Shown here: positions 35,540 through 63,631 of the stretch, piece after piece
Layout of the letters: each line of letters begins with the position of its first letter
Numbering within the stretch: the first letter of the stretch is position 1
Assembly (NCBI GenBank): GCA_033182465.1
Contig: CP137325.1
Coordinates: forward strand, 1,426,001 to 1,490,000
Reading direction: 5' to 3'
DNA from: Sanghuangporus weigelae
Taxonomy: Eukaryota > Basidiomycota > Agaricomycetes > Hymenochaetales > Hymenochaetaceae
Length of the DNA: 64,000 nt
Program-made: the position numbers and the translations under genes
Notes under the pieces: model-generated
Databases searched by the model: none
What the model saw: the letters and a program-made list of their open reading frames with translations, nothing else
What the model was told of the DNA's origin: nothing

Positions 35540-36330
35540 CTTGAAACTGATGTGCCCTTTGCTTCCCAGCTTTTGCTCCATTGCCTACTTTCAATGTCTT
35601 TCCATTGTCCCCTTGATGAATCTATGTAATTCAAGAGATATGACTTTTTTTCATTTCGAGAAGGAGAGATGCATTCTTTTGAAGGAACATCCAGTGGGAA
35701 CGACATTACGGCTGTCTTATGTGAGCATTTAAGATTTGCCCGACAAATTTTTCCTGATGTTTTCTCTCTCAGAATGAGTGGACCGCTAAGTGGCATTTTT
35801 TAATGACCTTTTTTTAGGTGATCTTCGTTTTTATTTGCGGAGCTTAGTGAAGAGTGACCAGAAGAACATGAACACATTGGAGCATTTGCAGCTTGGCTTG
35901 TTGTCTCGCTCGAGATCTCACCTTGGTATATATAATGGCCTATTGTGGTTTCAAGAAACCCCTCGCCCCTTTATCTTCAACTCATGATCAGTTCTCTTAC
36001 AGTACTGGCCAATACTAATTAGCCTGCTTGCATCACGGAATGGTTGAATGAGTCAAAGGCTGAAGAAACTAGTCTCTCGGATCTTCTCTTCTGTTCATTC
36101 AGGTGTGGTGCTGTGTAAAAGCTGATCTGATCTACAAAATGATCATTTCAAACTGATGAACACGCTGGAACTTATTGGAGTGGAGAAGTTGGTAATTTCG
36201 AATTGGTTATACCGGAGGCACACGAAGTAATCTTACCCTCGATGGACTGAGACGATCCAAATCACATTCCCTGTGTATTCAGAACGCCATGGCCGATACA
36301 TATGTCACTCTCGCTTAAGAATACACATTT
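35540..36330. repeat. Hydrophobin-array repeat unit, left part of unit 1
   Basis: This non-coding stretch aligns by eye with 57780-58490 and 61570-62250. Shared landmarks are GATGCAT(C)TTTT near 35670, TTTAAGATTTGCCCGACAAA at about 35730, and GGTGTGGTGCTGTG near 36105. In the other units it lies between an FAD-gene fragment and a hydrophobin. Here it is cut off by a DIRS-like element, and resumes at about 40180. Confidence 0.7.
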
Positions 36331-38332
36331 TGTTTTGTATGTTTCGCAGTTTGTTATTATAATGTACATTTTATTTTGAGAGAAAGAAAGAGGAGAACAT
36401 GAGAGAAGAGAAGAGAAGAGGAGATGGGTGCCAGCCGCTGAAAGCGGCTCCGGCTCCCATCATCATGCCCGAACCTACGAGTGGCAGAAGTCAGCTATGG
36501 CTCAACACCTATAATGTAGGAGCCCGTGACGCGTCGAGGCGTAGTGAGAACCCACATGAGTAGGAGGCGGGTGAAAATACTTACGGTTTGAGAAATAAAG
36601 GGGGGGGGGGGGCGATAATGCACCGAGCTGCGGAAGTGCAAGATCAGGTCGCATATATGAGAGACTCAGACACATCTGATTATCTCGGAGGGGGCATGGT
36701 CAATCGAACGAACTGATCATGCACTTCGGGGGCGGCCTGAAGGTAAGGGGCCAGGATTTGGGCATGTTTGCGAACGTAGAGGGTGAAGGCGTCAGATGCC
36801 CAATGCCCGATTGCCTTGACCACATCGAAGGGAACTCCACGAAGCAGATATTCGAGTGTAGACCCGATACAAATGCTATGGCCATGTAAATGCTCAAGGC
36901 CGGCTTGCTTGGCAGCTTGCTCCAGGCGTTTGAGAAAAACAGTCTTGGTAAGGGCCTGGTGAGTATTCTCAGAGCGGTATGCAAATAGAGGCCCATTCAA
37001 GGGAGGACAATTAACAGCAAGATGATTTTGAAAGGCAGAGAAAGGGTCAGTCGGCCCTTCTTGAGCAGCCCAGAAGACCTCTTCACCGTTGGGTGCCGTT
37101 TTGGATGTAGGCAGAGAGAAGGCACGAACTTGATGGCCCTGGCGATCCGTTCGCTCAGAGACATCAGATGGTTTGATATGGACATGGGGGAGGAATGCTG
37201 CTCGATTCGGAACAGTGAACTCTCCAAGTTGAGCACAAGCATAAAATAATGTAGTCAAGCAGGCAAAGACGGCGGCATCCAGAGGTTCGGAGAGAGTGAG
37301 GCAAGTCCGAAGGGATGCAATAATTTCAGGTGTATATGGTGCTTGGAGTGGTCGTCTGGAGGTTTCAGGGGTGAGAGAGCCTGCACCACGAAGGAGGGAT
37401 TTGAGTTCGGTTTCATTGATACTCTATGGAACGCGATGCAGGACATGCCAGGCTCGAATGCCAAAGACATAATTTGCAATTGATGACGAAGAGTAAGAAC
37501 CAGCCAATGAAGCGATGAAACCAGCTAACAGATCAGAGGAACAAGGAGCTCGAAGCTCTTCAGAGATATGTAGATTATCACAGAAACGATTCTGCACCAG
37601 GCGGAATTTGTCTGAATTGGGTTTCGGAACAAGAGAAAGAGGAGAAGATTGAAAGGGACCAATAAGGTCCTCGAGTTGAGAATGAGAAAAAGGGCCAAAG
37701 TATTGGCCAGCTGAAAATTCCGCGGAGACAATAGAATCAAATACATTTTGATGCTGATAAAGGGAGGTGGAGTTGGAGGGACAGAAGGAGACAGAGATAC
37801 GAGGAATGCCCGCATGAAAACCTGTCCAAAGAAAAGAGACAAGAGGGGGGTACCGCTCGAGGAGTCGAAATCGAAGTAAATCAGAATGCCAGGAGGCAGG
37901 ATGATAAGGCGACGAGGAAGGAAATTTATTTCTGAGCGAGTTTGCAACCAGAGGCTCCATGAACTGTAGATCCGCATCCAGAGCACTCGTGGAGATAAGA
38001 GTGGTGGGTGGCACATCCAACAAGGAGTTGGAAGCGGATGCACACGTTTTGGCCAGAAGGGTTGAGAAGGGCATTCCCCGGTCCTCGATGGCAACGACTG
38101 GGTTGAGAACCGTCCCAGAGCTTTGCTCTGGAGCAGGTCTGGACATTGTGGTCCCCAGTGCCAAGACAGATGGCGCAAATGGTGGGGAGCGCACTTGCGC
38201 CCGAGCGAAAAGGCTCGGTTTTCCGAAACCGAGACGCTGAGGCAGTGTTGGTAGAATTGTCGGCTTCAGCTCCAAAACAGCGTTTTTGCGCTCCAGACAC
38301 CCGAGAGAATGAGGATGGAGTCGAGGCCTGAT

Positions 38333-38335
<3 letters not shown>

Positions 38336-38371
<36 letters not shown>

Positions 38372-38372
38372 T
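38336..38372. repeat. Microsatellite (GACA)n
   Basis: About eight uninterrupted copies of the tetranucleotide GACA, inside the DIRS-like element. Confidence 0.95.
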
Positions 38373-38419
38373 ATAAAAAGGGAGTGGTTAGAGACAATGA
38401 CATTGTACGGATATGTTAC

Positions 38420-38637
38420 AGAACATAAGGAGAGAGGTCATCACAGAGATGTGTCATCGCAACCAGACATGGTTGCGGAACAGAGAGAGAGATCATCGCA
38501 GAGATGCGGCATCACAACCCGACATGGTTGTGGAACAGAGAGAGATCATCACAGAGATGCAGCATCACAACCCGACATGGTTGTGGAATATAGAGAGATC
38601 ATTGCAGAAATGCGGCATCGCAACCTGACATGGTTGC

Positions 38638-38640
<3 letters not shown>
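38420..38640. repeat. Minisatellite, about 57-bp unit, four copies
   Basis: Each unit runs GAGAGATCATCGCAGAGATG and on to CATGGTTGYGGAA. The four copies differ at a few positions each. It sits between the gag-like region and the finger region of the DIRS-like element. Confidence 0.9.

Positions 38641-38672
<32 letters not shown>
38641..38672. repeat. Microsatellite (GA)n
   Basis: About 15 GA repeats directly after the minisatellite. On the minus strand they code a Leu-Ser repeat at the end of the gag-like frame. Confidence 0.95.
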
Positions 38673-38675
<3 letters not shown>

Positions 38676-40044
38676 TGCTCACGGTGGAGGATGCCATAAG
38701 CTGATGGATTTTGTTAACTTGCTTTTGGTGTTGTGCCGCCTGCAGTTCCTGCAGGACTTGATTGAACATAGCCTCGTCTACACAGTTAATGTAAGGGTGG
38801 GAGTTGGTCTTCTCGAAGTCGTTATGCCACATGGTGCGGATTTGAGCAAGATAGACCATGAGAGGGTGCTGGCCGTTAATCGTGGGGTTGAGGTTGGACG
38901 GATGAGAAAGAACATTATCAAAAAGGTCGGCCCACATGTCGACGACTTCAGGAGGCCATTGTGCATTGCGAATGGCTTCGAGAAAATTCATGTGGGCTTC
39001 TCGGAACTGATGTAAGTCAAGTAGATCATCGGAAGGCACCTTCTTAGACAAAAAGGCTGAGGTAGCAGGAACGAGGGCGGATGCTCCATCGACGACTTCA
39101 AAACGATAGGAATTGTCGGAAATGGTCTGCTGATGGGATTCAAGTTGGCTCTTGAGACCACGAGTCGTAAAGTGGAACAGAGGGATGTGCTGCAGCTTCC
39201 GAAGCCGACTCTCGATGGAAGCATGGAGGACATGAGTGGACCGGCGGTCTTGAAGGAGGTCAGGGCCAAACTGGAACGGGTTTCGGTCTGGGCTAGCGCT
39301 GGCGGCAGTAGCAGCAGCAGCAGCAAGAACGGGTACAGCAGGTGCAGGAGCAACAACGGGAGCCGGAATATGGAGAATGGGAGGAACGGCATCAGCAGGA
39401 GCAGCAGGAGCAACAGCAACAGATAGTGCAGGAGGTAGGATCTGAATGACCGGGGTTGGAGACGGGGGTCGCGAGGCGTTAGGCAACGGAGCCAACAGAG
39501 CCAGGGAACTGCCACTGCTCGCTTGTGCCTGATTTGCAGCCGTTCCGTGATCGACGGCGGAGGAAGGACCAGCGACAGGAGCCGAGGCGGGGTCGACGGA
39601 GGCGGAGTGGGGTACGGGGATAGAGTGCGATGAACTTGCCTGGTTTGAACTGTATGTGTTCCACCATATTTTCGCCTGAGCTGTCCAAATCTGCCAAGTC
39701 TGTTCCATAAACCACTTGATTTCATTGTCATCCAGATTGCTAAGCCGTCGTTTGTATTCACGTCAAGCGTCGTCATAAGCAGCTGAAGAGAAATCCGGCA
39801 TTTGAAGAAGGTCGGGATCATACGGTACACGGTCGGGTTGCGGTGGCACAGCATTACGATGCGTGTTGATGGCCATACTGATATAGTTTGAAGAAGCAAA
39901 CTAAACGAATGTATAGAAAGGAGATACAGAACATGAGCAAAGAGGGTTTCGGTATTTGAAATGAAATTTGCAACAATGTTCCTTCACGACAAGAACGACG
40001 CGTCGGAGGTGATGGTAGGAACGAAAGAAGCCTCGGCTTCTTCC

Positions 40045-40190
40045 GTCACCTCCGACGCAGACCTAAATCTTCAGTCTGGCTCGCCACACCGAAGATTGTC
40101 AATTAATCGAAAGCCCCGTCACCTCCGACGCAGACCTAAATCTTCAGTCTGGCTCGCCACACCAAAGATTGTCAATTAATCGAAAGCCCT
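40045..40190. repeat. Direct repeat, about 75 bp twice
   Basis: CCGTCACCTCCGACGCAGAC and the following text through GTCAATTAATCGAAAGCCC occur twice in succession with almost no difference. A further partial copy starts near 40000 (GACGCGTCGGAGGTGA) in inverted orientation. These lie at the right edge of the DIRS-like element. Confidence 0.85.
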
Positions 40191-40254
40191 GAACTAGTTC
40201 TTAAGCCTTTCCAAGACTCATATGTGGTTCCTCCGCCTTCGATTTCATGGATGG

Positions 40255-40408
40255 TTTTAAGATGTTGAGCTCACGGTGCCTTCAGTATGAGGGCATACGT
40301 ACGGTAACGAGAGAACGTTCGTTCTTATTATACACTAACCTTCCAGAGGTCTTATATACTACTGATACAGCACGTGCTAATATTACATAATACAATTATA
40401 TTCTAATA
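40255..40408 (-). repeat. Copia 3' LTR
   Basis: 154 bases, matching 53585-53738 except at two positions. A purine-rich tract (GAAGGGGAG on the minus strand, 40417-40409) lies against its inner edge, as expected for the polypurine tract. Confidence 0.93.
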
Positions 40409-40447
40409 CTCCCCTTCAATCTAGTAATTTCTGAATGATTAGATTGC

Positions 40448-41088
40448 TTAACTGTCGACAAGTCCGATTAACAAATTTAAATGATTGAATTGTTTAATAT
40501 TGAGCACTTTTGTTAACGTGTCTGCACGTTGATTTGTGGTTGGTACATAATTGACCATAATTGAATGATTTTCGATATAACAATGTACGAAGGCTCTTCG
40601 CCTATCCAAATGTTTTGTTCTAATATTATGTGAAAATTCATCAATTTGAACATCTCTTATAGCTGCTTCGTTGTCCGAGTAAATCGTGATTAATCTATCA
40701 CTTTCTTTTATATTTAATTCTTCAATAAAATGTTTAATCCATATAGCTTCTTTGGTGGCATGTTGTAATGCTTGAATTTCTGCTTCATATACTGATGCAG
40801 GTACCAAATCTTGTCTTTTTGATGACCACGAAAATGATGAATTTCTTATTGTAAATATATATCCATTAATAGCTTTATAGCCTTCTGTTACCGCACCGTC
40901 TGAATCGCAATATCCATCTATTATTAGCGGATATTTGCCTCCAAGTTTCAACCATTTGTTTTTGGTTGTGTTTAAATATGATAAGGCATATCTAGCAACA
41001 TTAACGTGTGTTTCATCAGGGTTATGTAAATGTCTTGCTAATTGTCCTGCAACATAGGCTACATCGGGCCTAGTGGCATCTGCAGCGT
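40448..41088 (-). other. Copia RNase H region
   Basis: Motifs of the copia RNase H: TRPDVAYVAGQLARHLHNPD, GYCDSDGAV, SSKRQDLVPASVYEAEIQAL and TIYSDNEAAI, ending with KHLDRRRAFVH. The insertion of LTR-like copy 2 lies directly upstream in the reading direction. Confidence 0.85.
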
Positions 41089-43108
41089 TGTAGCGCACTG
41101 GCCCCTCCTGTGCCAGTACACTCATACTATGGCTCCCCCTATACTGCAGATACCATATCTCAGCGCCGCCAACACCTCAGAGTGTGAGGGCATACTCCTA
41201 CTGCACTCGAGACACCATTTGAGCACGTTTCCACTGATTCCAGTACACGTACTGTACTGCGGCGCCCTCCTATGGCCCAGATCGATCCGCCGATGGCTCT
41301 CCGACACTCAGAAAGGTCCGCCGACAGCTCCTACCCAGCACCAGGCACTATAGGACAGACCCTCCAATGATTACATGCCGCCGATCTTACGATTTACTAT
41401 ACGTACAGCCTTGCGGCGACTCTGGACGCCTCCGAGTCGGCTCCCCATGGCGCCGATTGATGCGGCGGACACTCAGACATCCTCAGGGACCTTCGCCGAC
41501 ACCTCCTACAGCTTACCAAGCAGTCCCCCATTGTCTAGGGAGCTATATATTGTCATATGTGCTTACATGCCTCATTACGACATATCTGCCACCAGTCCGG
41601 CAGTCCCCCACAGCACTGCCGCTCCGGCCACTCATATTAGTCACTAGGGATCGCCCACACTCTGTATTGAGTGCCGCCGATGCATCGGACACCTCAGGGA
41701 CATCGGCTGATGCGCCCTTTGTCTCATATACGCAATATCAGCCTCCGATCATCGGTTCCGATGTTTCCCGACTTCCCCCCGACGCGGCGGCCCCCATTAG
41801 ACCATGTATGGAAGGTAGGCATGTGGTACATCGGCGTGCCAAGCCACCGACTCGCGCCGCCAAGCCCAACTCCGCTGGCGCCCGTATTATTGCAGATACT
41901 TGATATTCCATGCTATTGGACGCCCCCCTCACGTTGCTGCTCTCAGATTTCACCTGGGCGCTCCGGCAGCGGCCCTTGGTGACCCAGATGACTCAGGAGA
42001 TGTTGTCAGACAGTATGACGTGTCGGCAACAGCAGTAGAGTATATATAGAGCTTATACTAGCTTGTAGACAACAGGATTCCAAGCCTAGCAAGGATTCCG
42101 AGCCTAGCAAGGATTCCAAGAGCATGTACCAGACCGAGCGCCAGAGTTCGAGATATCCCTCACTCTGAGTCTCCCCTCATGTACTGAGCCTCCCCCTTGA
42201 CTATATACTATCCTTGGCATCTCCTCTTGTTTGACTCCACATTCTACTTGCCTTCGCCGCCTCCGGTACGCCTCTGCCGCTCTGACGTTCAGTGAGTGAG
42301 TAGGGCTTGGGATTTAACCCTGAGCCTCCTCCCCACACTTTATACCTGTCCGGCGCCCCTCTATTTGACATCGGCGACCCTTCGGCGACCCAGGCTTCTT
42401 ATCAGACTCCCCTTCGGCGTCCTTTCCAGCCTTTCACTCCAGTTTATCCCATCTATTGATCTTATATGGTCTTTTCCTTTCATCTATCGCGTTTACACTA
42501 CTTCGGCAGATTTGTGCAGCCTCCCCCTCAATCCAGCGCCCCTCTATTCAACGTCGGCGGCCACCTGGCGACCCAGCCTTCCTATCATACACCCCTGCAG
42601 CGTCCTTTCCAGCCTTTCACTCCAGTTTATCCCATCTATTGATCTTATACGGTCTTTTCCTTTCATCTATCGCGTTTACACTACTTCGGCAGATTTGTGC
42701 AGCCTCCCCCTCAATCCGGCACCCCTCTATTCAACGTCGGCGGCCACCTGGCGACCCAGCCTTCCTATCATACACCCCTGCAGTGCCCTTTCCAGCCTTT
42801 CACTCCAGCTTAGTCCATATATTCATCTTATACGGTCCTTTCTCTCCATCTATTGTGTTTACGCTACGTCGGCAGCCCCCTGTGATCCCCCCTCTCAAGC
42901 GGCGGTCCTGTTATCCTATTCCCTTTATCCAGCGGCATCCCTAGACCCATCCATTATGTCTCCGACGGTTCCTGGCACCTGCCGGGTAGTAGGTCTTTGA
43001 GAGTCTGATAGTGTCGGCATCCCATTTTTGGAGGTCCCTTCATACATTCAGCACCCTTAGTAGGACGGACATCTGTAGCACCTTCAGATATGACACCGCC
43101 GACCGACA
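41089..43108 (+). mobile_element. LTR-like element, copy 2, inside copia
   Basis: Starts TGTAGCGCACTGGCCCC and ends GACCGACA, with perfect GCGT duplications at 41085-41088 and 43109-43112. It is the longest copy (2020 bases) because the subrepeat of about 183 bases is present three times (near 42421, 42603 and 42786). It separates RNase H from reverse transcriptase of the copia element. Confidence 0.75.
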
Positions 43109-43112
43109 GCGT

Positions 43113-43599
43113 ATCGGAGTGATCCGACTAAACTCATAAATAATGATTTAGTTTCCTGTGAACTCGTATTGTCGCTTGATTTTAATCTACTGCCTGGTGC
43201 CATTGGAGTTTGGCGTGATCTTTCAGTTTCAATATTAAATCTGAGTGTTATGTCTTCAATGTATTTCTTTTGTCTTAATAATATTGTTCGATTGTGACGG
43301 TTTCTCTTCATTTCAATTCCTAATAACCAATGGATCTCACCATTGTCTGTTAGATTAACGAATTTTCGTATTTTCGTGATTAAATTATTTTTTATATTAA
43401 TATTTCGACTTATTATAGTTATATCATCCACATGCATAAATGTTATCAAGTTCGGTTTAAATATCGATTTATCGTAAAATACCGCATAATCTTCAGCAGA
43501 TCTTGTTAATCCTGCTGCATTAAGTATATCATTTATTTTCTTATACCATCTTCTTCCTGATTGTTTTAACCCATATAAGGCCTTTTTTAATCTTAATGC
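43113..43599 (-). other. Copia reverse transcriptase, second part
   Basis: Shows KKALYGLKQSGRRWYKKIND, the catalytic-site box ITFMHVDDITIISRN (variant of YxDD), and HWLLGIEMKRN. It lies between the first and second insertions. Confidence 0.85.
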
Positions 43600-45418
43600 T
43601 GTAGCGCACTGGCTCCTCCTGTGCCAGTACACTCATACTATGGCTCCCTCTTACTGCAGATACCATATCCCAGCACTGCCGACACCTGAGAGTGTGAGGG
43701 CACACTCCTATTGCACTCGGGACATCATTTGAGCACGTATCCATTGATTCCAGCACACGTACTGTACTGCGGCACCCTCCTATGACCCAAATCGATCCGC
43801 CAATGGCTCCCCGACACTCAGACAGGTCCGCCGACAGCTCCTACCCAGCACCAGGCACTATAGGACACATCCCTCAGTGACTACGTGCCGCCGATCTTAT
43901 GATTTACCATATGTACAGCCGTGCGGCGACTCTGGATGCCTCTGAGTCGGCCCCCCTTGGCGCCGATCAATGCGGCGGACACTCAGACATCCTCAGGTAC
44001 CCTCGCCGACGCCTCCTACAGCTTACCAAGCAGTCCCCCTTTGTCTAGGGAGCTATATATTGTCATATGTGCTTACATGCCTCATTACGACATATCTGCC
44101 ACCAGTCCGGCAGTCCCCCACAGCACTGCCGCTCTGGCCACTCATATTAGTCACTAGGGATCGCCCACACTCTGTATTGAGTGCCGCCGATGCATCGGAC
44201 ACCTCAGGGACATCGGCTGATGCGCCCTTTGTCTCATATACGCGATATCAGCCTCCAATCATCGGTTCCGATGTTTCCCGACTTCCCCCCGACGCGGCGG
44301 CCCCCATTAGACCATGTATGGAAGGTAGGCATGTGGTACATCGGCGTGCCAAGCCACCGACTCACGCCGCCAAGCCCAACTCCACCGGCGCCCGTGTTAT
44401 TGCAGATACTCAATATTTCATGTGATTGGATGCCCCCCTCACGTTGCCGCTCTCAGATTTCACCTGGGCGCTCCGGCAGCGGCCCTTGGCGACCCAGATG
44501 ACTCAGGAGATGTTGTCAGACAGTAGGATGTGTCGGCGACAGCAGTAGAGTATATATAGAGCTTATACTAGCTTGTAGACGACAGGGATTCCAAGCCTAG
44601 CAAGGATTCCAAGAGCATGTACCAGACCGAGCGCCAGAGTTCGAGATATCCCTCACTCTGAGTCTCCCCTCATGTACTGAGCCTCCCCCTTGACTATATA
44701 CTATCCTTGACATCTCCTCTTGTTTGACTCCACATTCTACTTGCCTTCGCCGCCTCCGGTACGCCTCTGCCGCTCTGACGTTCAGTGAGTGAGTAGGGCT
44801 TGGGATTTAACCCTGAGCCTCCTCCCCACACTTTATACCTGTCCGGCGCCCCTCTATTTGACATCGGCGACCCTTCGGCGACCCAGGCTTCTTATCAGAC
44901 TCCCCTTCGGCGTCCTTTCCAGCCTTTCACTCCAGTTTATCCCATCTATTGATCTTATACGGTCTTTTCCTTTCATCTATCGCGTTTACACTACTTCGGC
45001 AGATTTGTGCAGCCTCCCCCTCAATCCGGCACCCCTCTATTCAACGTCGGCGGCCACCTGGCGACCCAGCCTTCCTATCATACACCCCTGCAGCGTCCTT
45101 TCCAGCCTTTCACTCCAGCTTAGTCCATATATTCATCTTATACGGTCCTTTCTCTCCATCTATTGTGTTTACGCTACGTCGGCAGCCCCCTGTGATCCCC
45201 CCTCTCAAGCAGCGGTCCTGTTATCCTATTCCCTTTACCCAGCGGCATCCCTAGACCCATCCATTATGTCTCTGATGGTTCCTGGCACCTGCTGGGTAGT
45301 AGGTCTTTGAGAGTCTGATAGTGTCGGCATCCCATTTTTGGAGGTCCCTTCATACATTCAGCACCCTTAGTAGGACGGACATCTGTAGCACCTTCAGATA
45401 CGACACCGCCGATCGACA
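43600..45418 (+). mobile_element. LTR-like element, copy 3
   Basis: 1819 bases, starting TGTAGCGCACTGGCTCC and ending GATCGACA. Left flank ATGC (43596-43599), right flank ACGC (45419-45422). The right-hand ACGC is at once the left flank of copy 4, so copies 3 and 4 are separated only by the 4-base target site. Confidence 0.75.
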
Positions 45419-45422
45419 ACGC

Positions 45423-47210: not shown

Positions 47211-47214
47211 ACGC

Positions 47215-47922
47215 TTGGCCGGGTTTAATATCTTTGCAGAACTTTCCTGGTGGTGGACGCATGTAGATGATTTCATCTTCATTTAATTCTCCGTATAAAT
47301 AAGCAGATTTTACATCAATTTGATGTATCTCGTAATCATTTGCCGCTGCCCAATGTAATAATAATCTAGCTGTTGATAGCTTTGCGACTGGTGCAAAAGT
47401 GTCTTGTGAATAATAATCTATTCCATCAATTTGACTAAAACCTTGCGCTACTAATCGCGCCTTATATTTTTCGATAGTAGAATCTGCTTTGTATTTTATA
47501 TTGTAGACAAATCTACATCCCACTATATTTGTGTTCGGTGGTGGATATTTATATATCCATGTGTTATGTTCTATTAGTGAATCTATTTCATTTTTCATGG
47601 CCTGTTGCCACTTATCATGATCAGGTCTTCTTAACGCATCTAAGTATGTTATTGGTATTTTCATACTTTTATTTATTTCATTGTTAAATTCTGTTAAGAA
47701 TATAGAAATATCTTCTTGTTTTTCGATCGCTAGACCTGCTTCTCTTTTCTTACGAGATGGTTCACGGTGTCTTTGTAGTCTTTCTTTTAATGATGTTTGA
47801 TTATTAGTATCGTTATTATTATCATGTTGTATTATTATCTCCTCCTGAGTTCGAGTTTCGTTAGAAATGATGAACTCTACATTTCTTTCTGTTGATACTT
47901 TGGAATCATGGTACACGTACAT
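47215..47922 (-). other. Copia reverse transcriptase, first part
   Basis: Contains WQQAMKNEIDSLIEHNTW, VYNIKYKADSTIEKYKARLV, AQGFSQIDGIDYYSQDTFAP and IHQIDVKSAYLYGEL, the N-terminal motifs of copia reverse transcriptase, including the first catalytic Asp in DVKSAYLYG. Confidence 0.88.
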
Positions 47923-48038
47923 GCCATCTTTTGTATTTGAATCGTATCCGACAAATTTTCCAATTGCACCTTTATTTTGTAATTTATTTGTGTTTTCTTT
48001 TCTATATATGACATCGTGTCCAAATTCTTGGAGACCAT

Positions 48039-53173: not shown

Positions 53174-53584
53174 GCGTAATGGTCGTTGTTCATAGAATCG
53201 CGGAGGAGCATAATGGTAAAATTTTGAACATGACATTGAATATTCTATTCGTCGTCTCTGCGTGCTATACCTCGTTGTAACCTGTGTCGCTGCATCTCTC
53301 TTTCCAACCACCTGCGCCCAGTCTGGTCTGTTGTGAGGATATTGAGCAGCCGGACTTTTACCAGTTTCTCGGTATGTAGGACGCGCGGGTCGAGTCTGAA
53401 CTTCGTCCATGTTGTAACGACTTCGATGCGACGTGGACTGTGTTTGATAAAATCGGTATCGAAAATATTGTTGTCGTACTTCCAAAATTCGGTGAACTTG
53501 TATGTTCTAGTATATATGTGCGTCGTGTCGACGAACGTCAAATCCGAATATGTTTTGTTCGCAGGGTTGTCAAGGCTCATAACC

Positions 53585-53738
53585 TTTTAAGATGTTGAGC
53601 TCACGGTGCCTTCAGTATGAGGGCATACGTACGGTAACGAGAGAACATTCGTTCTTATTATACACTAACCTTCCAGAGGTCTTATATACTACTGATACAG
53701 CACGTGCTAATATTACATAATACGATTATATTCTAATA
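53585..53738 (-). repeat. Copia 5' LTR
   Basis: 154 bases. The primer-binding site next to it reads GGTTATGAGCC on the minus strand (53584-53574), complementary to the anticodon arm of initiator tRNA-Met. Priming from an internal tRNA fragment is known for Drosophila copia. Confidence 0.92.
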
Positions 53739-53743
53739 GATGG

Positions 53744-54055
53744 AACCTAGAAGTGAATCGTTTCTGGCATCGCTGCTCATACTGTGCTGACAAATACGTC
53801 TTAAATGTATTAGTTCTGCATCACCGTCCTGATATTGAACTCTTTATCATTGCCATAACCGTCTAACCTCGGGTATATTGAAGCGTGACTGCGTAGAAGT
53901 CTGCGACAGACTCTTCGAAGGAGATGCTTCCCACAACTCTCCGGCCGGCACATTCTCAGCAGTATAAACTCCAGCATCTCTGGACTCTCGACTAACACTC
54001 ACTTCACAAGCAATTGACTTGAGTTAGTTTGAGTATCGTTTCTCAGACTCTCGCC
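53744..54055 (+). promoter_or_regulatory. Promoter of hydrophobin 1, truncated by copia
   Basis: A TATAAA box lies at 53963-53968, 93 bases before the ATG, preceded by CTCCGGCCGG as in the other three hydrophobins. Only about 310 bases of the original upstream sequence remain next to the gene; the rest lies left of the copia element (40180-40254). Confidence 0.75.
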
Positions 54056-54553
54056 ATGTTTCTAACAAAGTGCACTTTTGTCCTTGCTCTCCCACTTCTT
54101 GCTTTCACCGTGGCCCTAGGTATGCTCGCCACCAGGGCCACAAGCACCACTATTAACATTGTCACTATGATAGACACTGCATTGGAGCCTGAGAGCCCAT
54201 GTAACACAGGCCTCTTCAGTGCTGCAGCACCGTTGTCTCAGCTAGTGATCCTTCTATTGCAGCCCATTTGGAAGTCGTTCTTCAAGACGTCAACGTAGCA
54301 GTGGGAGTGACCTGCAACCCTCTTTCTCCAGGAGATTCTTGGTACATAGCCTCAGCAGTATAGTTTTTGGGATTAATGAAATATATTCTAATCCAACCTG
54401 GCCCTTTCTCCCATGAAGCTCTGCCGTGACTGTTTGTTGTGAGGACAATACCCACGGTAACTATGATTTCAATTTATTCTTCTTCTGTTCTGGTCTTGAT
54501 CATTAGGTGGCTTGATTGCTATCGGTTGTGCTCCAGCCAACGTCGTCTCTTAA
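54056..54553 (+). pseudogene. Class I hydrophobin 1, frameshifted
   Basis: Three exons as in the other copies: exon 1 from 54056, exon 2 54419-54456 (38 nt), exon 3 54507-54553 (47 nt), the last two equal in length to those of the intact copies. The start [20 protein letters not shown] is a signal peptide. All eight hydrophobin cysteines can be found, but one base is missing between CNTG and QCC compared with the other genes. The first cysteine is therefore in one frame and the other seven in the next (QCCSTVVSASDPSIAAHLEV, VTCNPL, then CSAVTVCC and AIGC). Splice sites are good. It is either a recent pseudogene or a sequence error. Confidence 0.75.
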
Positions 54554-55805
54554 GTGTGCATCTGCAGATATGAACGCGGTGTGTTCTATTTTTGTGAAAT
54601 CATGAATGATTTGGGATTGTGTTGTTAAATGTAACCTGGAGGTTGCCAATCGAAGTTCAATTTGTTACTGTCAATGCCTATCTTGAAAGAATTGTCATGA
54701 CGCTGCGAGAGATGATGAACGTTCTGATATTCAGACAGTAGTTCAGAGATTATCAATACGGAGAACAGATGCTTGGAAGGAAGGGAAGATGACGTGTCGT
54801 TGATGTGACATGTTTCGATCATAGTCTATTTACACCATCCACGGTTCCTACCTAAATCAAACTTCGAGGCAGCTAGAATTTCGGATCTTTCCTTTGCCTC
54901 GCTGATACAGTGATAGTATGCGGCATTGGTGTCTTCGGTGGAGAAGTTGGACAGGTACCTTTGTCAAACCAATAGACGTGCTCGGGCTCCTTAAAGCGGA
55001 GAACTCGGTGACTCCGCATTCATCTCACTTCCAATGAGTCGAGACGACCGAGATCGTATTTTACGCCACTCGACAAGCGTATTTTGAACGTCGTAGTCAA
55101 CTTATGCGTTTCACTCACGCCAGCTTGGTATCGCCTTTGCCTTTGGTTGGTTGGTTGGGGGGGGGGCAAAGGCTCCGTATCCGGTTCACCTCAGTCCAGG
55201 CTTCAGGTGCACGAGGTAACGGCATTATGGGTTCCTTATGGTATTTTGCTCAAGTCTTTCAGCTCATAGATCATCGACCGGCCTCCTGTAACCCCGACGA
55301 TCGGATTGTCTAGTTGATCGAATGACCCAAAACAGTTCTCAAGCTTTTTGACGTTTCCTGTGCCTTGAATGCAGTTTGTTCCATTGCTTCTGCCATAGTT
55401 CGCTTCCCCCATCCAGATTCCAGTAAGACAGCTCCCGAAAGTGAATTGTTTCCGCCACTGTTCCTTGTTCTGCGCTGACATACGCGTCTCTAATGTCTTG
55501 GCCCTGTATCACTGTGTTGGCACCGGACTCTCTACCAATACCGTAACTGTCTGATCTTAGGTGCAATGGGGCATCGCAATACAGAAATGATGTCGAGCCT
55601 GTCAAGTTATCCGCTTCCCTTGTTTTTCGGCGCTGTATACTGGGAAAACCTCCTGGAGCTCCGTGAAGGACATCAGAGAAAATCGTTTCTAACAACTCTC
55701 CGGCCGGCCCGTTCTTCGATATAAACACATCTCCAGACTTTCGACTAAGACAACTTTCGAACACCCGACTTCTCTTGAACTAGTGCTAATCTTCACTGCG
55801 CCGCG
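54554..55805 (+). promoter_or_regulatory. Spacer and promoter of hydrophobin 2
   Basis: No gene is seen. The stretch 55235-55800 is repeated before the hydrophobin at 63.1 kb (62510-63100) and partly before the one at 59.0 kb. A TATAAA box at 55720-55725, 86 bases before the ATG, follows CTCCGGCCGGCCCGTTCTTC. A run of ten G is at 55156. Confidence 0.6.
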
Positions 55806-56328
55806 ATGCTTTTCACCAAGTACGCCTCCGTCCTCGCTCTCCCGCTCCTTGCGGTCGCCACACCTGGGGGTACTCACACCACCAAGGCTACAAGTACGAC
55901 TACTGTCACTATCACCTCGACGGCCACCGCGACTCAGCCAGCGAGTCAGTGCAACACAGGTCCGATCCAGTGCTGCAATTCCGTTCAGTCAGCTAGTAGC
56001 CCTGCGTCCTCGGCGCTTTTGGGTCTCCTTGGAATCGTTCTTCAAAACGTCAACGTTCTCGTGGGCTTGACCTGCAGCCCCATTTCTGTTATTGGTGTCG
56101 GAGGTTCTGGCTGGTAAGTCGCTTCAGCAGTACGGTTCATGACAAAGGAGTTATATTCTAATTTAACTCTCTCTGTACTCCCATAAAGCAATGCTCATCC
56201 TGTCTGTTGCGAGAATAATACCTTCAGTAACTCTAATGTCGCACTTATTAGTATTCTTCCTGTACTGATGTTCATTCCTAGATGGCCTCATTTCTATCGG
56301 CTGCGTTCCAGTCAATCTCGGGCTGTAA
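55806..56328 (+). CDS. Class I hydrophobin 2
   Basis: Exons 55806-56113, 56189-56226 and 56282-56328 sum to 393 nt, 130 residues. Signal peptide [20 protein letters not shown], a Thr-rich linker, then the eight-cysteine pattern: [21 protein letters not shown] and SIGC. Intron 1 splits the codon of the fifth cysteine; intron 2 splits an Asn codon. Hydrophobins are secreted and self-assemble at air-water interfaces to coat aerial hyphae, fruit bodies and spores. It is preceded by a TATA box. Closest in this window to the copy at 63.1 kb. Confidence 0.94.
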
Positions 56329-56879
56329 GCATCGGCGAGATGTCGCCGAGATCGAGATGGTCCTTAGTGAGAAATTATAGTGGTTTCGGATTTGCGTTGT
56401 TAAAAATAAACTGCCGGGTTCATCTTGCTGAGAATATGTTTGTCAATAAAGGTTGCTTGAAAGCAATACAATTTATGACATGGTGAGCGACTTCCTCTGG
56501 CGTGAGGAAATGGACATCCGAATATTTCAGTCAGCAATATACGCAGAATTGAAGTACAGTGCTCAACCTTCAGGTAGGAGAAACTTGAATGCGTGAGAAT
56601 GGCGCGTCGCGTCAGGCTGGTAACTTTACGTACACATTTACTATATCACCCCATGCACTCGCAACAACGCGACCTTCGATTCCAATCCAATTTGAGCCGA
56701 TGCCAAGACGTGTCCTGCTCTCTGAGTCAGTCATGCATTCCACCTTGTCCGCTCGGCCGGTGATACCGAAGAGAGGGGCATAGGCATCTTATGAAAGCTT
56801 CAAAGATCATATCCCTGGTGCGCGAAATGAATAACTAAGCTCTCGGGAACCTCAGGTATTTCTACTCTACGACATAAGC
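56329..56879. other. spacer after hydrophobin 2
   Basis: 3' untranslated region and spacer with no gene. CAATAAAGG near 56446 resembles sequence after the other hydrophobins and may be near the polyadenylation site. Confidence 0.5.
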
Positions 56880-57600
56880 AACACTAGAATCGAGAGTACA
56901 TGGAAAAGGTGTGTCGTGATCTTTGAGCGTGCTTACAACTTACATTTGCTGAAATCAATATTCGGGCTCGACTATAAAGGCATCTCGTCGCCGTTCGCAA
57001 AGTTCCGGCCTCTGTATTTCATCCACATATGACGCGCATCACCGGCCTTAGTTCAAGGTCTGTCATATTCATAGTTGGCTTCCTATTCCGATACTATTTG
57101 TTGCTTTTTCCGCAGGGCATACCGCCTGACGGACGGCATACAGCAAATGAGGAGTCGAAATCATCACCGACCCCCCCCCCCTCTCTTCTTCCCAAGCCTA
57201 TATGCTTATCTGACAGTATTTCTGAACAAGGACATGCAAAACGAGTGGACGCGCGACGAGATCGATTGATCCAAGATCTTCAAGGAGAAGTGGTGGCAGT
57301 AGCAAGGGCATATAATGTTAGTACGGTGCTGCGGCTCTGACAATCAACGGCATCACACACACTATACGTCAGGCTGGGGATTGGTGAACAATGAGCTGTT
57401 CGTGCGAAGTTGTGAGGTGCAACGGGTGCGGGTTTCGATTCATATCGCTGTCTAGCTCATGAAGATGCGAATTCGTCTCGCTTTGTATTCCATGTGATGA
57501 TCGATTAAGTCAACGTCAGCTGGTACGCCGTCAGGATTCACTGCTGCGTATGAGCTAGGTGTGGACTATCCGATTAACGACAACGACAAGTAAGCAAGCT
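56880..57600 (+). pseudogene. 3' fragment of the FAD oxidoreductase gene, copy A
   Basis: The fragment matches the end of the gene at 19.8-21.8 kb from GAGTACATGGAAAAGGTGTG (56898; parent near 20975) through GCATACCGCCTGACGG (57116), AACGAGTGGACGCGCGACGA (57239) and GGCTGGGGATTGGTGAACA to the last exon (about 57540-57595). Frames are interrupted several times and the 5' exons are absent, so it codes nothing useful. Downstream sequence (TCTGTCAAGGATGCGGAAGA at 57683) also matches the parent locus at 21881. Confidence 0.85.
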
Positions 57601-58982
57601 AACAACTAGGCGAGCTTCAAAATTTCAACCAATCACGTGCTCGACGTCTCGTCTCTTCACCCCTTATTTTGAAGGTGGTGCATCTGTCAAGGATGCGGAA
57701 GAAGGATAGGAAAGGAAGATGTCGTAACAAAAATGGGACGACAGGATTGGAGGGGACTTTTTCGTCTTGTTCACGTGCGCTCGCGGTTTGAAACTGATGT
57801 ACCTTTTTTTGCTTCGTTCCATCTACTTTCAGTGTCTTTCCATTCTGTTGCTTCCCCCTTGATGTAACTATGTAAATCAAGTACGATTCGCTCTTCATTT
57901 CCAAAAGAGAAGATGCATCTTTTCAAGGAAACTCCCAGTCGGAACGACATAACGGCTCCAAAGTGAGTATTTGAGATTTGCCCGACGAATTTTTCTGATG
58001 CTTTCTCAGAATAAGCGAGTCGCTAAGCACCGTTCTTTTTCTTGAGGTAGTCTCCGTTGATCTCTGTAGAGCTTAGCGGAGAGTGGTTAAAGGAATATGG
58101 ATACATCGGGGCGTCCTCGTAGCCTGCCTTGTTGCCTTATTCAAGATCTCACTTTGACACGTATGATGACTTATCGTGTTTTCATGAGGCCCCTCGGCCC
58201 TTTGTCTTCGAATGAGACTCACAATCAAAGTCTGGGGCGACTGGTCTCTCGGATGTTCCCTTTCGCTCTTCGGGATGTGGTGCTGTGTGAAAGGTGAGCC
58301 GGTAAATTTACAATGATCATTTCAAAGTGATGTGCATGCTAGAACTCACTGAAGTGGAGAGGTTGGTAATCTCGAATTGGTTATACCGGAGGCACGCGAA
58401 ATAATCTTACGCTTAATGGACTGAGACGATCTAGATCACATTCTCTGTGTGTTTAGCGAATATATATGTCGCTCTCGCTCAAGAGTGTCGAAATAACCAA
58501 AAGACTTGAACTGGTAGCTTTCAAGCCTTCAACGTTTTCCGTGCCTCTAATGTGGTTTGTCTAGCTGCCTCTGCCTTCCAGATTTCATGAATGGAGCCTT
58601 AAAGTAAACCGTTTCCGCCATCGCTGCTCTTTCTGCACTGCCGTATACGCAATGAATGTACTGGCTCTGCATCACCGTCCTAGAATGGGACACTCATCGG
58701 ACACTTAACCAACACCGTAAGTGTCTGATGTTAGGTGCGATGGGGCGTCGCGATACGGAAATGACGTTGGGCCTGTCAAAGCTGCCCGTTTCCGATGACT
58801 TTTCAGCGATGCGTCCTGAACAACCTCCTAGACTCCGTGAAGGACTCTAGAGCAAAGTGCTTCTCGCAACTCTCCGGTCGGCCAGTTCTTCGATATAAAT
58901 TGAGGCAAAGCTAGACACTTAACTAACAAACAACTCTCGAGTACCCAGCTTCTCTCAAACTAGTTCTAATCCTCACTCCGCA
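57601..58982 (+). promoter_or_regulatory. Array spacer and promoter of hydrophobin 3
   Basis: Repeat-unit spacer shared with 35.5-36.3 kb and 61.5-62.3 kb. The right end has CTCCGGTCGGCCAGTTCTTC and TATAAA at 58894-58899, 89 bases before the ATG. No gene is seen. Confidence 0.6.
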
Positions 58983-59515
58983 ATGCTTTTCACCTTCACC
59001 AAGTACGCCTCTCTTCTCGTTCTCCCAGTCCTTACGGCTGCCACGCCCTGGGGAACTTCCACCACCAAGGCTTACAGTGCGACTACAGTCACTGTCACGT
59101 CGACGGCCACCGCGACGCAGCCAGCGAGCCAGTGCAACACAGGTCCAATCCAGTGCTGCAATTCCGTTCAGCCAGCTACTAGCCCTGAGTGCATGGCCCT
59201 TTTGGGTCTCTTGGGCATCGCCCTTCAAGATATCAACAATCTCATGATGGGTTTGACCTGCAGGCCCCTTTCTGGCATGGGTTCCGGAGGTTCTGGCTGG
59301 TAAGTCGCTTCAGCAAAACAGCTCAGTATGAGTGAGATATATTCTAATTCGATCTTTCCTTTCATCTCATAAAGCGAGGCTAATCCCGTTTGCTGCGAGA
59401 ACAATAACTTCAGTAACTATAGTGTCACGCTTGCTCACTTTCCTTGCCGTTCTGATGTTGATTCTTAGATGGCATGATTTCTATCGGCTGCGTTCCGGTA
59501 AACATCGAGATGTAG
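58983..59515 (+). CDS. Class I hydrophobin 3
   Basis: Exons 58983-59299, 59375-59412 and 59469-59515 total 402 nt, 133 residues. The signal peptide is MLFTFTKYASLLVLPVLTAA. Cysteine pattern [25 protein letters not shown]. It differs from copies 2 and 4 by extra residues near the start and around LQDINNLMMGLTC. Intron places are the same. Expected to be secreted and to form amphipathic surface films. Confidence 0.94.
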
Positions 59516-60321
59516 GCATCGTCCAGCAGGAACGAAAGACACCTCGCCGAGAAGGTCGTTATTAAGAAGTTATTAGTGGTTTGGGTCTGTGCTGTCTGAT
59601 ACGAACTGCCTGTCTGAGTTCATCTTCCTGAGAATATGATTGTCAATAAAGGACCGATTAAAAGAAATATAATTCATTGTCATGGTGAACCAGATCCTAT
59701 GAAATGAGAATATGAGCGCTCTTATACTTCAGTCCTCAGGCAGGAAATCTTCTTGGAATGCGGCTAGTGTTTTGATGCATCTTACAGATTACAGTAAGTA
59801 GGTTGCTTCCCATTCCGGTACTACTTTATCTGCCTGTTTCTTCTCTCGTAGGGCATGGTACATATTCCGACCGTATCCGTATACGGATACGACCGTACAT
59901 TTAGTCTCATACGGATACGGAAGGCTCGTATACGGGGGTGATAATACTTTATATCTCAAAATAAAGTAAATATCACTTTTTCGAAGCATATATAAAATTT
60001 ACTGCACCAACAACAGTATTTGGGGATAATTTCACCAGAAAATTAGTTGAATAATGATCAGTGGGATGCATGTGAACAAGTGCTTACCTGGTGTACATCA
60101 TCATCAGAACTCCCTCCTATTTGCAGGTTTCTTGTAATTGGTAACTGAAATTTTTATTTCTGATCAGAGGGCAAATCTGGGCGGCAAAGATGGGCTGGGC
60201 AACGTGATGTAAGTTGCCATATACGGATATAGGTAGAATACTAACCGACAGGGGGCAAAACCCTATCTCCGAACCTGAAAATTTGGATCCGGAACTGGAC
60301 GAGCTTTCCAATTCTGTTTCC
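59516..60321. other. A/T-rich spacer with palindromes
   Basis: No gene is seen. CGTATCCGTATACGGATACG (59873-59892) is a perfect 20-base palindrome; related words CATACGGATACGG and CGTATACGGG follow within 50 bases, and ATACGGATATAG recurs at 60220. This may be the end of a decayed DNA transposon. Confidence 0.45.
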
Positions 60322-60323
60322 TA

Positions 60324-60995
60324 TACAGGCATTTACCGGTCCTTTAAACAGTACCCTTCCTTTGAACACCCTACATTTACTCACTCAAACCTCCAATTTG
60401 CAACTTGAAATTTTTATCATAGGTGGACAGAATACACATGAGTCATGCTGCGAAATTTCAGCAAATTACTATGACCCGTTAAATACAGAGAAATTATTTA
60501 CTGCTGAATTTCAGTGAATCTCAATGAGAAACAATGAATCAGATGCATTTTGCTATTCATTCATGCTTTGAGCATGGCTCAAAAGCAAATATATTAGTAC
60601 TCCACTACTGTAAGTACATGCAGCCTAGTTTTTGTGGCGAAAGAGCTATCCAATGAATTAATATAAGGCATACAATAAAGGTGACTTGAAAAGCGTGACA
60701 GGCAGACTTATCAACATTATTATGTAATCGGGCAGTTCTCATCTCGCGAATACATGCACTAGCATGACACTTATGTCACAAGGTGTTCAAAGGAGTTAAT
60801 TTCGTGACATTTACCCTACTTTTTTCACACGCACAATTTGATTTTTCCTGCACATTTTACAGCTCAAAAAATTTTCAGCATATAGCCTCCATAGCAGACT
60901 ACTCAGATATGCAATTAGATTTTTTGTTAAATGTTTGTGGTGTTGTGTACGAGTGGATCTGTATTGGGTGTTCAAAGGACCGGTAAATGCCTGTA
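60324..60995. mobile_element. MITE with 22-bp terminal inverted repeats, TA target
   Basis: Perfect inverted repeats of 22 bases, starting TACAGGCATTTACCGG at 60324 and ending in its complement at 60995. TA flanks both sides (60322-60323 and 60996-60997), as in Tc1/mariner-type elements. The word GTTCAAAGG is repeated inside near both ends. No transposase is present, so it is non-autonomous. Confidence 0.75.
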
Positions 60996-60998
60996 TAA

Positions 60999-61128
60999 CA
61001 CACCGGGCAAAAACTCATTCCGCGCCCTTAGAAATTTTGATCGGAACAGGTGAGCTCTCATCCGATTGGCTCTTTTTCCATTCTGGGTAACATTTTCACG
61101 GTTCGAAAATGAGTTTTTGCCCGGTGTG
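60999..61128. mobile_element. MITE of 130 bp, TAA target
   Basis: Perfect 21-base inverted repeats begin CACACCGGGCAAAAACTCAT at 60999 and close at 61128. TAA flanks both sides (60996-60998, 61129-61131), as in PIF/Harbinger-type elements. It abuts the TA-type MITE directly and shares its target bases. Confidence 0.75.
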
Positions 61129-61149
61129 TAAGAGCTCATAAACATAATT

Positions 61150-61450
61150 CTGCCCCCTGTGCGACATTATCGGACGCACTATCTTTGGTACGGTACCGTG
61201 GCTCTGAGCAACCAACGGGAAGCACCTCACCCGAACAGCTGGGAATTGGTGAATAATACTGTTCGTGCGAAGTGGTGTAGTGCAACGGGTGCTAATTTCG
61301 ATTCATCATTTTTACTGTACGTGCACGAAGGTACGAACTCCCTCGCTGGATATTGCATAGCATGGCCGTCTAATAAAAATTCAGTTGGCCTGACGTCAGG
61401 ATTCGCTGCTGCTCGGTACGGACTATGCGATTCGGTTAACGTCGACGACA
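61150..61450 (+). pseudogene. 3' fragment of the FAD oxidoreductase gene, copy B
   Basis: Matches the last exons of the gene at 21.5-21.8 kb: TTTGGTACGGTACCGTGGCT (61183), GGGAATTGGTGAATAATACT, CAGTTGGCCTGACGTCAGGA (61381) and GATTCGCTGCTGCT. Only about 300 bases remain and the frame is not kept. It occupies the same place in its array unit as copy A. Confidence 0.8.
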
Positions 61451-63100
61451 AACTTTTTTTTCTTTTTAAAGAAGAAAAAAAAAATCCATCCGATCAAGCG
61501 CTCGATGTCTTTTCGATTGGCCCGTCTTGTTCACATGCCCTCATGTAAAACATTTTGCTTGTACTTGAAACTGACATGCCAGGAGTTATTCTCGCGCCAT
61601 TAAAAATCATACTGTACCTAGAAGAAAGATAATCCACCAACCAGATGAAGAGCGTCCATGTTCCGACCTGAATTTCCTGGGATCCGGCGAGCTTTTTTTC
61701 CCGGTGCGCATGATGTGCCTTTTGCTTCCTGGCTTTCTCTCCACCGCCTGCTCTCAATCTGGTCAATGTTCTGTTGTTTTCCCCTTGATGAATCTATGTG
61801 AATCAAGTATGATTCGCTCTTCATTGTGAGAAGAAGAGAAGATGCATCTTTTCAAGGAACCGCCCAGTCGGAACGGCGGAACGGCTCTCTAAGGTGAGTG
61901 TTTAAGATTTGCCCGACGAACTTTTCTAACATTTCTTCAGAATGAGTGTGTCATTAAACACCATTCTCTTTTTCTTGAGATGATCATTGTTGATATTTGC
62001 AGAGCTTAGTGGAGAGTGATCGAAGGAGTATGGACACATTGGAGCATCCTCGCAGCTTGCCTTGTTGCCTTGTTCAGGATCTGACGTTGGCACTTATGAT
62101 GGGTTATCGCGGTTTCATGAGGCCCCTCAGCCCTTTGTCTTCAATTCACTATCAAATATTCAGGCAACTAGTCCCTCGGATCTATCCTTTCGTTCCTTGG
62201 GATGTGGCGCTATGAAAAAGGCGAGCCGGTACCTTTACATGCGATCATTTCGAATTGACGGTTGTGCTGGAACTCAGAGGTACGTCTATGATTCTGTATT
62301 CATTATCCCGGAAATGTACGAAAGGGTCACATCCTGGATGACTCGAGAAGAACGACGTCGTTTTCTGCGTCTTGTCATGGTTGGTATATACTTCGAGGAG
62401 GATTGATGCTACCTGCGTCTTTACTTGAGGGAAAAGAATCCACTTAGAACTCTTCTCTGGTCTGCCACATTACACGCTCAAACTGCACGAAGCAACGGCA
62501 GTCTAACTCCTCACGGCATTTTCTTCAAGTTTTTGACCACACAGGTCGGCGACTGGCATCGCATAACTCCGACCATCATATTGTTGGCTTGGTCGAATGG
62601 TTCAAAATAGTCCTCAAGCTTTCCGGTGTCAGCCGTACCTCGAACCCAGTTTGTTCCACTGCTTCCTGATAGTTCGCTTCTGTCTTTGGAGCTGAAGATG
62701 GGCATCCCGAAAGCACGTTGTTTCCGGCATTGTTTCCGGCATTGCTGCTTATTCTATACTGATATATTCACCTTGAATTCATCGGTCCTGCACCACCGTG
62801 CTGGTATCGGACTCTTTACCAACCCTGTACCTGTCTGGTCTTGGGTGCATTGAAGCGTCGCAATGACATCGGGCCTGTCAAGGCTATCCATTTTTGTTGC
62901 CTTTCGGCGCTGTTTTCCGGGAAAGATCTCCTGTGGCTTCATGGAGGGCTCCGTAAGGGAATTACTTCTCGCAACTCTCCGGTTGGCCTGTCTCTCAGCG
63001 GTATAAATTGCAGCGTTTCTGGACTCTCAACTGACACTCATCCATCGAGAACCCAACGACTCTTGAACTAGTATCGACCTTCAACTCTTGACTTATCATA
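61451..63100 (+). promoter_or_regulatory. Array spacer and promoter of hydrophobin 4
   Basis: Repeat-unit spacer alike to 57.6-59.0 kb and, further right, to 55.2-55.8 kb. CTCCGGTTGGCCTG and TATAAA at 63002-63007 lie 94-120 bases before the ATG. An open frame at 62212-62406 looks coding-like, but matching DNA in the other units is not open, so I do not call it. Confidence 0.6.
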
Positions 63101-63631
63101 ATGCTTTTCACCAAGTACACTTCTGTCCTCGCTCTCCCGCTCCTTGCAGTCGCCACGCCCTGGGTTACGCCCACCACCAAGGCTACAAGTACGACTACCG
63201 TCACCGTTACTGCGACGGCCACCGCGACAGAGCCAGCGAGTCAGTGCAACACAGGCCCGATCCAGTGCTGCAATACTGTTCAATCAGCTGATACCCCCGC
63301 CGTCTCGACCCTTCTGGGTCTGTTGGGCATCGTTCTTGAAGACCTCGACGTTCTCGTGGGCTTGACCTGCGATCCGATTTCTGTTATCGGTATTGGAAGT
63401 TCTGGCTGGTAAGTCACTCCTGCAGCGCGGTTTTGGAACTAAAAATGGGATGTGTTCTTATGGCACGCTGTTTTCTCTTTATAAAGCGATGCTCACCCTG
63501 TTTGCTGCGAGAACAATAGCTTCGGTAAGTATAACATCACACTTACTACTGTAGTATTCTTTCCGTACTGATGTTTATTCCTAGATGGCCTCATTTCTAT
63601 CGGCTGCGTCCCGGTCAATATCGAGTTGTAA
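63101..63631 (+). CDS. Class I hydrophobin 4
   Basis: Exons 63101-63408, 63487-63524 and 63585-63631 sum to 393 nt, 130 residues. Signal peptide [20 protein letters not shown], then a Thr-rich segment and the cysteine pattern [25 protein letters not shown]. Nearly the same as hydrophobin 2 outside the linker. Secreted surface protein; no frame damage. Confidence 0.94.

Follow-up and report, generated by a model that had tools for sequence, protein, structure and literature searches.

The window analysed here, a 64,000-bp stretch of the Sanghuangporus weigelae genome (contig C8, CP137325.1; C8:1426001-1490000), carries a tandem array of hydrophobin genes whose first unit is split by inserted DNA. 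All results rest on one assembly of 13 contigs and 33.87 Mb, and positions beyond the window are given in extended coordinates, meaning the window plus the next 20 kb. A preliminary description of the window's sequence had counted four units; a Pfam search and comparison over the extended window revealed five hydrophobins, the fifth lying with unit 5 beyond the window. The Pfam hydrophobin search identified 18 places in the genome, 16 of them over the cut-off and five in this array (23/23 candidates scored). The array members all exceed the cut-off (5/5), the first, hydrophobin 1 (HP1), being weakest with 25.1 bits.

The complete unit consists of four segments, A to D, on the plus strand. Unit 3 (56827-59740) shows A-B-C-D unbroken, with an open hydrophobin 3 (HP3) at 58983-59515. 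Unit 2 (55180-56532) contains C and D only and an open hydrophobin 2 (HP2) at 55806-56328, and unit 4 (59804-63852) has an open hydrophobin 4 (HP4) at 63101-63631 and an A segment interrupted between 59857 and 61169. In unit 1 the segments are dispersed. Segment A (20911-21996) is host DNA that begins within the end of a neighbouring gene and is otherwise noncoding; it aligns with 56827-57785 in unit 3 and 65331-66210 (extended) in unit 5. Segment B (35540-36326), also noncoding host DNA, aligns with 57788-58484 in unit 3, 61711-62154 in unit 4 and 66212-66882 (extended) in unit 5. Segment C (40175-40254) comprises 80 host bases between two mobile elements, and segment D (53744-54700) contains a TATA-like box at 53963 and the frameshifted HP1. 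The DNA left to HP1 upstream of its ATG (53744 to 54056) measures 312 bp, in agreement with the approximately 310 bases first estimated. The idea that segments A and B are coding was rejected: they share no open frame, B shows no phase of three, and the gaps do not come in threes.

The preliminary description had proposed that the DNA on both sides of the two elements, and the bridge between them, are collinear with one continuous stretch of another unit. Self-comparison bore this out: 35540-36326, 40175-40254 and the DNA from 53744 onward follow one unbroken stretch of unit 3 in that order (the unit 3 counterpart of 35541-36320 is 57788-58484, and that of 53740-53830 is 58591-58681). When the four host pieces were joined (2911 bp) and compared with unit 3 (56827-59740, 2914 bp), the alignment was mainly one high-scoring segment pair (HSP) covering joined positions 299-2756 with 65% identity (E=0), rising to 71-78% in the best segments. 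The bridge itself (40174-40254) scored 33 against unit 3, while a control of 300 random 81-mers from window positions 1-20000, scored on the same unit 3 target, reached a maximum of 24 and a 99th percentile of 22. Its scores against units 2, 4 and 5 were 28, 20 and 19, the control having been built for the unit 3 target only. With 57800-58800 as query over the whole assembly, six matches were found, of which 6/6 fall within this array. The observation is real and specific to the locus.

The first of the two elements separates B from C (36327-40101, minus strand, left edge ±~15 bp). Its initial reading as DIRS-like stands insofar as it is a likely tyrosine-recombinase retroelement, but going by repeat order it is probably of Ngaro type. 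The tyrosine recombinase family PF00589 was detected in 36680-37258 at 21.2 bits (E 2.6e-4), which falls short of its cut-off of 27.1, and similarly in two copies elsewhere (L050 and L051). Among the matches to the right end elsewhere, 9/19 stop exactly at 40101 and 16/19 within 40097-40109. The window copy has an internal deletion at 37590 and its reverse-transcriptase region is missing; at this point L051 and L052 are ~1.8 kb longer and L050 ~1.5 kb longer, and L049, which is cut at the left end, differs in where it is deleted and carries an additional insertion. In the extra stretch of L051 lies an open frame whose WVDDF motif, judged by eye, we take to mark a reverse transcriptase; searches of Pfam (up to E 1) and of PDB sequences gave no match for this frame. 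Dam methyltransferase, a mark of DIRS elements, was found in none of 7 frames from L050, L051 and L052, in a Pfam search that likewise missed the reverse transcriptase. DIRS1-type inverted terminal repeats were looked for and none long enough was seen in the window element. The repeat order A-pol-B-A-B is present in one of four compared copies (L052); L050, L051 and the window copy show only A...B. This order is the one given for Ngaro of Basidiomycota in PMC3783388. The family would resemble that description in its putative tyrosine recombinase and in the order seen in L052, and the searched frames of L050, L051 and L052 gave no Dam match; the window copy departs from it in showing only A...B and in the loss of both the reverse-transcriptase region and ~29 left-end bases (by eye).

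The right junction of the Ngaro-type element is covered by a 74-bp tandem duplication (40043-40189; copies 40043-40116 and 40116-40189, plus strand). Because it holds the last 59 element bases and 15 host bases, it is later than the insertion. The bridge had been given as the 75 bases 40180-40254; it is host DNA as supposed, with its start corrected to 40175 (80 bp) and the duplication lying over its junction. The element would have inserted at the B/C border, the 74-bp duplication arising afterwards.

The second element is a Ty1/copia retrotransposon on the minus strand (40255-53738) with long terminal repeats (LTRs) at 40255-40408 and 53585-53738, which are 154 bp long and differ at 2/154 positions (0.013, interval 0.0016-0.047). 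The junction quoted in the preliminary description was right: TTTCATGGATGG, LTR ... LTR, GATGGAACC. The last five bases of segment C, GATGG, are the copia target duplication and stand at 40250-40254 and 53739-53743. The family order on the minus strand is zinc knuckle (zf-CCHC), Pol_BBD, rve and RVT_2, of which RVT_2, Pol_BBD and zf-CCHC are over the cut-off and rve scores 29.9 against a Pfam cut-off of 32.6. The integrase precedes the reverse transcriptase, with rve (48039-48674) upstream of the two RVT_2 pieces (47056-47922 and 43084-43632; E 9.4e-28 and 1.6e-19). In its LTR pair, 5-bp target duplication, zinc knuckle and order of integrase before RVT_2 the element is like Ty1/copia. LTRs usually have TG...CA ends; here the coding-strand LTR reads TATTAG...TTAAAA, which is unlike Ty1/copia, as is the breaking of the window copy by four copies of a dispersed 1.8-kb repeat. 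These lie on the plus strand as a 2020-bp variant (41089-43108, flanks GCGT/GCGT), a tandem pair (43600-47210; 43600-45418 and 45423-47210 with a common ACGC, flanks ATGC, ACGC, ACGC) and a 1939-bp variant (51235-53173, flanks GCGT/GCGT). The tandem pair sits within the reverse transcriptase, and RVT_2 positions 2-105 and 112-243 flank it on either side. Copia copies elsewhere have none of these repeats at any of the three sites (5/5 compared); extra DNA of other kinds is present in two of the copies (L048 and L053). The copia element would have entered segment C, duplicating 5 bp of its target, and have taken four 1.8-kb repeats. The two retroelements had been called nested; they are neighbours separated by 80 bp of host DNA, and what is nested is the four repeats in copia.

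The two openings by the Ngaro-type and copia elements, as originally noted, are correct to the base at their junctions; the same unit has, however, been opened a third time. A composite block of 13.5 kb (21997-35539) separates segments A and B, which adjoin directly in unit 3 (57785|57788) and unit 5 (66210|66212) and whose join in unit 4 is crossed by one HSP. Together the inserts in unit 1 amount to 30,879 bases, a figure that includes the 74-bp duplication zone and a single copy of the 5-bp duplication, or 30.9 kb in place of the ~17 kb first reported.

The first 7 kb of the block (22029-29012, plus strand) is an inverted segmental duplicate of kinase-cluster DNA with two convergent Pkinase_fungal genes (PF17667); the cluster lies on C8 as well, at a distance of ~320 kb. 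The stretch 22029-25147 is 94% identical to C8:1772761-1775856(-) and 25147-29012 is 84% identical to C8:1768596-1772450(-), both inverted, and 25913-28734 is 92% identical to C8:1758948-1761770. At least 117 fungal-kinase matches were detected in the genome, among them 14 between C8:1.743 and 1.797 Mb (107/185 candidates scored). Three further matches (C8:2014344, 2020209 and 2025921) recur ~98 kb on (C8:2112335, 2118170 and 2123879), which suggests a large duplication on C8. For 28900-31010 no other match was found among the matches listed (40/155 candidates scored). Besides one 1.8-kb repeat, the interior of the block contains further repeats at 31011-31998, 33823-34064 and 34062-34508. The 988-bp repeat (31011-31998) has at least 54 further matching stretches (40/155 candidates scored), forms close inverted pairs on C5 and C2, and abuts the 1.8-kb repeat on C5; at its border lies a 131-bp tandem duplication (30880-31141) whose copies are 90% alike. 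The right end of the block (34508-35539, plus strand) is a fragment of the locus C8:1577168-1578283 (85% and 92% identity), and this match ends at 35539 while similarity to segment B begins at 35541. At the left join, 2-4 bases (GTG) are common to segment A and the kinase-cluster DNA (by eye), and the joins are nearly flush.

A reading of the block as a single transposon is not supported, its ends matching two different loci with no target duplication seen. The simplest route to a block set at the A/B border may be ectopic templated repair together with transposon hits. We considered whether the block instead stood between A and B ancestrally and has since disappeared from the other units, as the ends without target duplication would allow and as one deletion common to units 3-5 could explain; block parts, however, are 84-98% like copies elsewhere and the units only 65-78% alike, and we regard ancestry as improbable. 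That the chimeric joins are an artefact of assembly in a repeat-rich region is a thought prompted by the use of a single assembly, but the exact 5-bp target duplication, the divergence of the kinase relatives (84-94%, not identical) and the ordered host pieces all speak against it, and we consider it highly improbable.

The splitting of unit 1 is accompanied by an insertion in unit 4 and by an HP1 frameshift that had gone unnoticed. A search with the spacer 59741-61168 showed that a 0.67-kb dispersed repeat (60324-60995) lies within the A segment of unit 4. It ends in 29-bp terminal inverted repeats and is flanked by TA at either end, a hallmark of Tc1/mariner-like elements. Near-full copies with 93-100% identity are present on many contigs, including one on C8 at 100%, and at least 75 matching stretches were found (40/285 candidates scored). 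The element is probably a recently active miniature inverted-repeat transposable element. Similarity of unit 4 to unit 5 runs over 59804-59857 (87% to 65501-65552) and picks up again at 61169 with 65718, so that, as read from the alignment, unit 4 is opened as well, with one 54-bp anchor as the basis. It would have taken the 0.67-kb element separately. Beyond this unit, the genome search with the spacer 63853-64000 yielded nothing more, and the spacers 64001-65320, 54700-55180 and 56540-56830 were compared with the extended window only.

To the left of unit 1, the frames 20171-20518 and 20539-21009, continuing open to ~21261 (by eye), look like part of one gene, which has no Pfam match over a cut-off. 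Units 3 and 5 start with 14-24 residue pieces of the end of this gene, bearing stops and gaps. These tails indicate that the duplicated piece began inside the neighbouring gene, and the fact that the gene looks whole only beside unit 1, with decayed tails in units 3 and 5, argues that unit 1 is the founder edge of the array, from which we infer the direction of copying.

HP2 to HP4 and the fifth gene (HP5) have open models with eight cysteines in the order C-CC-C-C-CC-C, the pattern of class I hydrophobins, which HP1 fails to give because of its frameshift. The HP1 model (exons 54056-54341, 54419-54456 and 54507-54553; 371 nt) contains a 1-nt deletion between Cys1 and Cys2-Cys3 as well as in-frame deletions, its intron donor reads GTACAT versus GTAAGT in the other copies, and no other in-frame stop is present in the codon columns used. 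Over 120 codon columns (any column gapped in some copy dropped), HP1 is the most diverged copy, with a synonymous divergence (dS) of 0.81-0.93 to the others, and the closest pair is HP4/HP5 (dS 0.13). Private changes at the three codon positions number 19/26/25 in HP1, 7/7/9 in HP3, 3/0/6 in HP2, 3/1/4 in HP5 and 0/0/0 in HP4. An old neutral decay of HP1 was tried as a reading of these counts and is not supported by them. The flat private changes of HP3 hint at relaxed or shifted constraint in that gene. All eight Cys codons are kept in HP1, which under 70 random changes has a chance of 0.009; this points to constraint for much of its divergence, and a single frameshift with all eight Cys codons left points to recent death. 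HP1 seems, on the evidence of its codons, to have been kept for much of its history and to have broken late.

Whether the insertions caused this loss can be weighed against the other units. One possibility, to which we give a little over one chance in three, is that they moved segments A to C away and ended HP1 expression, so that the frameshift could then fix. The loss of HP1 is recent (one frameshift, eight Cys codons), as is the copia insertion (LTR divergence 0.013), in keeping with this reading. Against it, HP2 is open without A and B adjoining and with ~626 bp of unit DNA upstream, HP4 is open despite its opened A segment, and unit 1 retains the 312 bp nearest the gene, TATA-like box included; from HP2 and HP4 it follows that the distal upstream DNA may not be needed. 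Alternatively, and with a probability we put at about two in five, HP1 could by then be dispensed with, and its unit afterwards tolerated the arrival of large mobile and duplicated DNA. This accords with HP1 being the most diverged copy and with the presence of all three large inserts in unit 1, since elsewhere in the array a single insertion, of 0.67 kb, was found. The preserved Cys codons, however, mean that the decay cannot be old, and with the insertion in unit 4 a length-based chance for three of three insertions in unit 1 (0.0054) no longer holds. We lean slightly towards settlement in an already dispensable unit, with loss by insertion nearly as likely.

Taken together, we regard it as very probable that the locus arose by duplication to five units, followed by three openings of unit 1 and the recent death of HP1. 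A unit of ~3 kb, made up of noncoding upstream DNA and a hydrophobin gene adjoining the neighbouring gene, would have been duplicated into the array of five, and unit 1 would have been opened three times after this duplication. The relatives of the inserts elsewhere in the genome are 84-99% alike and the units 65% (71-78% in the best segments), and thus the inserts are younger than the split of the units. Several observations weigh against parts of this history. The tail of the neighbouring gene was looked for in units 2 and 4 and none was found, and the bridge scores for units 4 and 5 do not exceed the unit 3 control. The gain of the block, as opposed to its loss elsewhere, rests on relative divergence, and its 84% part is little above the unit identities; no target duplication was seen at its ends. 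As to the fate of HP1, its codon-position counts are not significantly different (Fisher p 0.10 and 0.23) when set against those of the remaining copies, and the open HP3 is likewise flat over the codon positions. Finally, the splits and the frameshift are read from one assembly.

Because the tandem copies give internal empty sites, a single genome reveals the junctions, the order of events and what became of the gene. All the events are of ordinary, known kinds, and the history is unusually clear to read; it is a clean case for asking if mobile DNA destroys a duplicated gene or moves into one that is already dispensable, and the kinase block illustrates that non-transposon segments from the same chromosome take part too. 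More tentatively, and we think this doubtful as a whole, the founder unit may be a local sink for large insertions that three unrelated mechanisms each opened (arrival of a composite segment drawn from two loci of the contig, integration by tyrosine recombinase and LTR integration), one genome may show the passage from tandem duplication to the loss of a member, and the 13.5-kb block may be a natural templated insertion joining far-apart pieces of a chromosome. Searching by title and abstract opening, we found no described hydrophobin array with such insertions and make no claim about what is in print, and we found no paper on FunK1 with transposable elements in Agaricales. Hydrophobin genes hyd3 and hyd4 of Tricholoma vaccinum form an inverted tandem pair (PMC5147985). 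The present array is like that pair in its linked hydrophobin duplicates and eight-cysteine spacing, and unlike it in its five direct units, long common noncoding upstream DNA and the splitting of one unit by 30.9 kb of inserts.

The 1.8-kb repeat, present in copia and in the block, has at least 50 matching stretches in the genome (40/285 candidates scored). The copy in the block (32002-33819, plus strand) has TGT...ACA ends and is flanked by ACGC and CCGC, an inexact duplication. No transposase-like frame was noticed in the repeat, on which no family search was made. Compared by eye, its two ends have hardly anything beyond TGT...ACA in common, and terminal inverted repeats of 40-270 bp were not seen. 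As LTRs of a larger element the repeats were rejected: one direct pair ~12 kb apart (C1:3478432 and 3492244), with identical outer bases as in a segmental duplication, was present among the matches listed, and a second pair of this kind was not noticed there. In 12 fetched copies (L022-L033) the ends are TGTNR throughout (12/12, TGTAG or TGTCG), and 8/12 have an exact 4-bp duplication of NCGN form, five of them CCGG/CCGT/ACGG and three GCGT/GCGG, a count that uses the best-fitting ends and includes two non-independent copies (L023 and L024). For Ginger1 DNA transposons and Gypsy LTR ends, PMC2836005 gives TGTNR ends and 4-bp target duplications, those of Ginger1 being CCGG/CCGT/ACGG. The 1.8-kb repeat is like them in its TGTNR ends and, for 8/12 copies, in exact 4-bp NCGN target duplications, and unlike Ginger1, as described there, in having no terminal inverted repeats of 40-270 bp, for which reason we did not file it as Ginger1. 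The two non-independent copies, L023 (C1:3492244) and L024 (C1:3478432), have the same flanking bases and therefore look like one segmental duplication, not two insertions.

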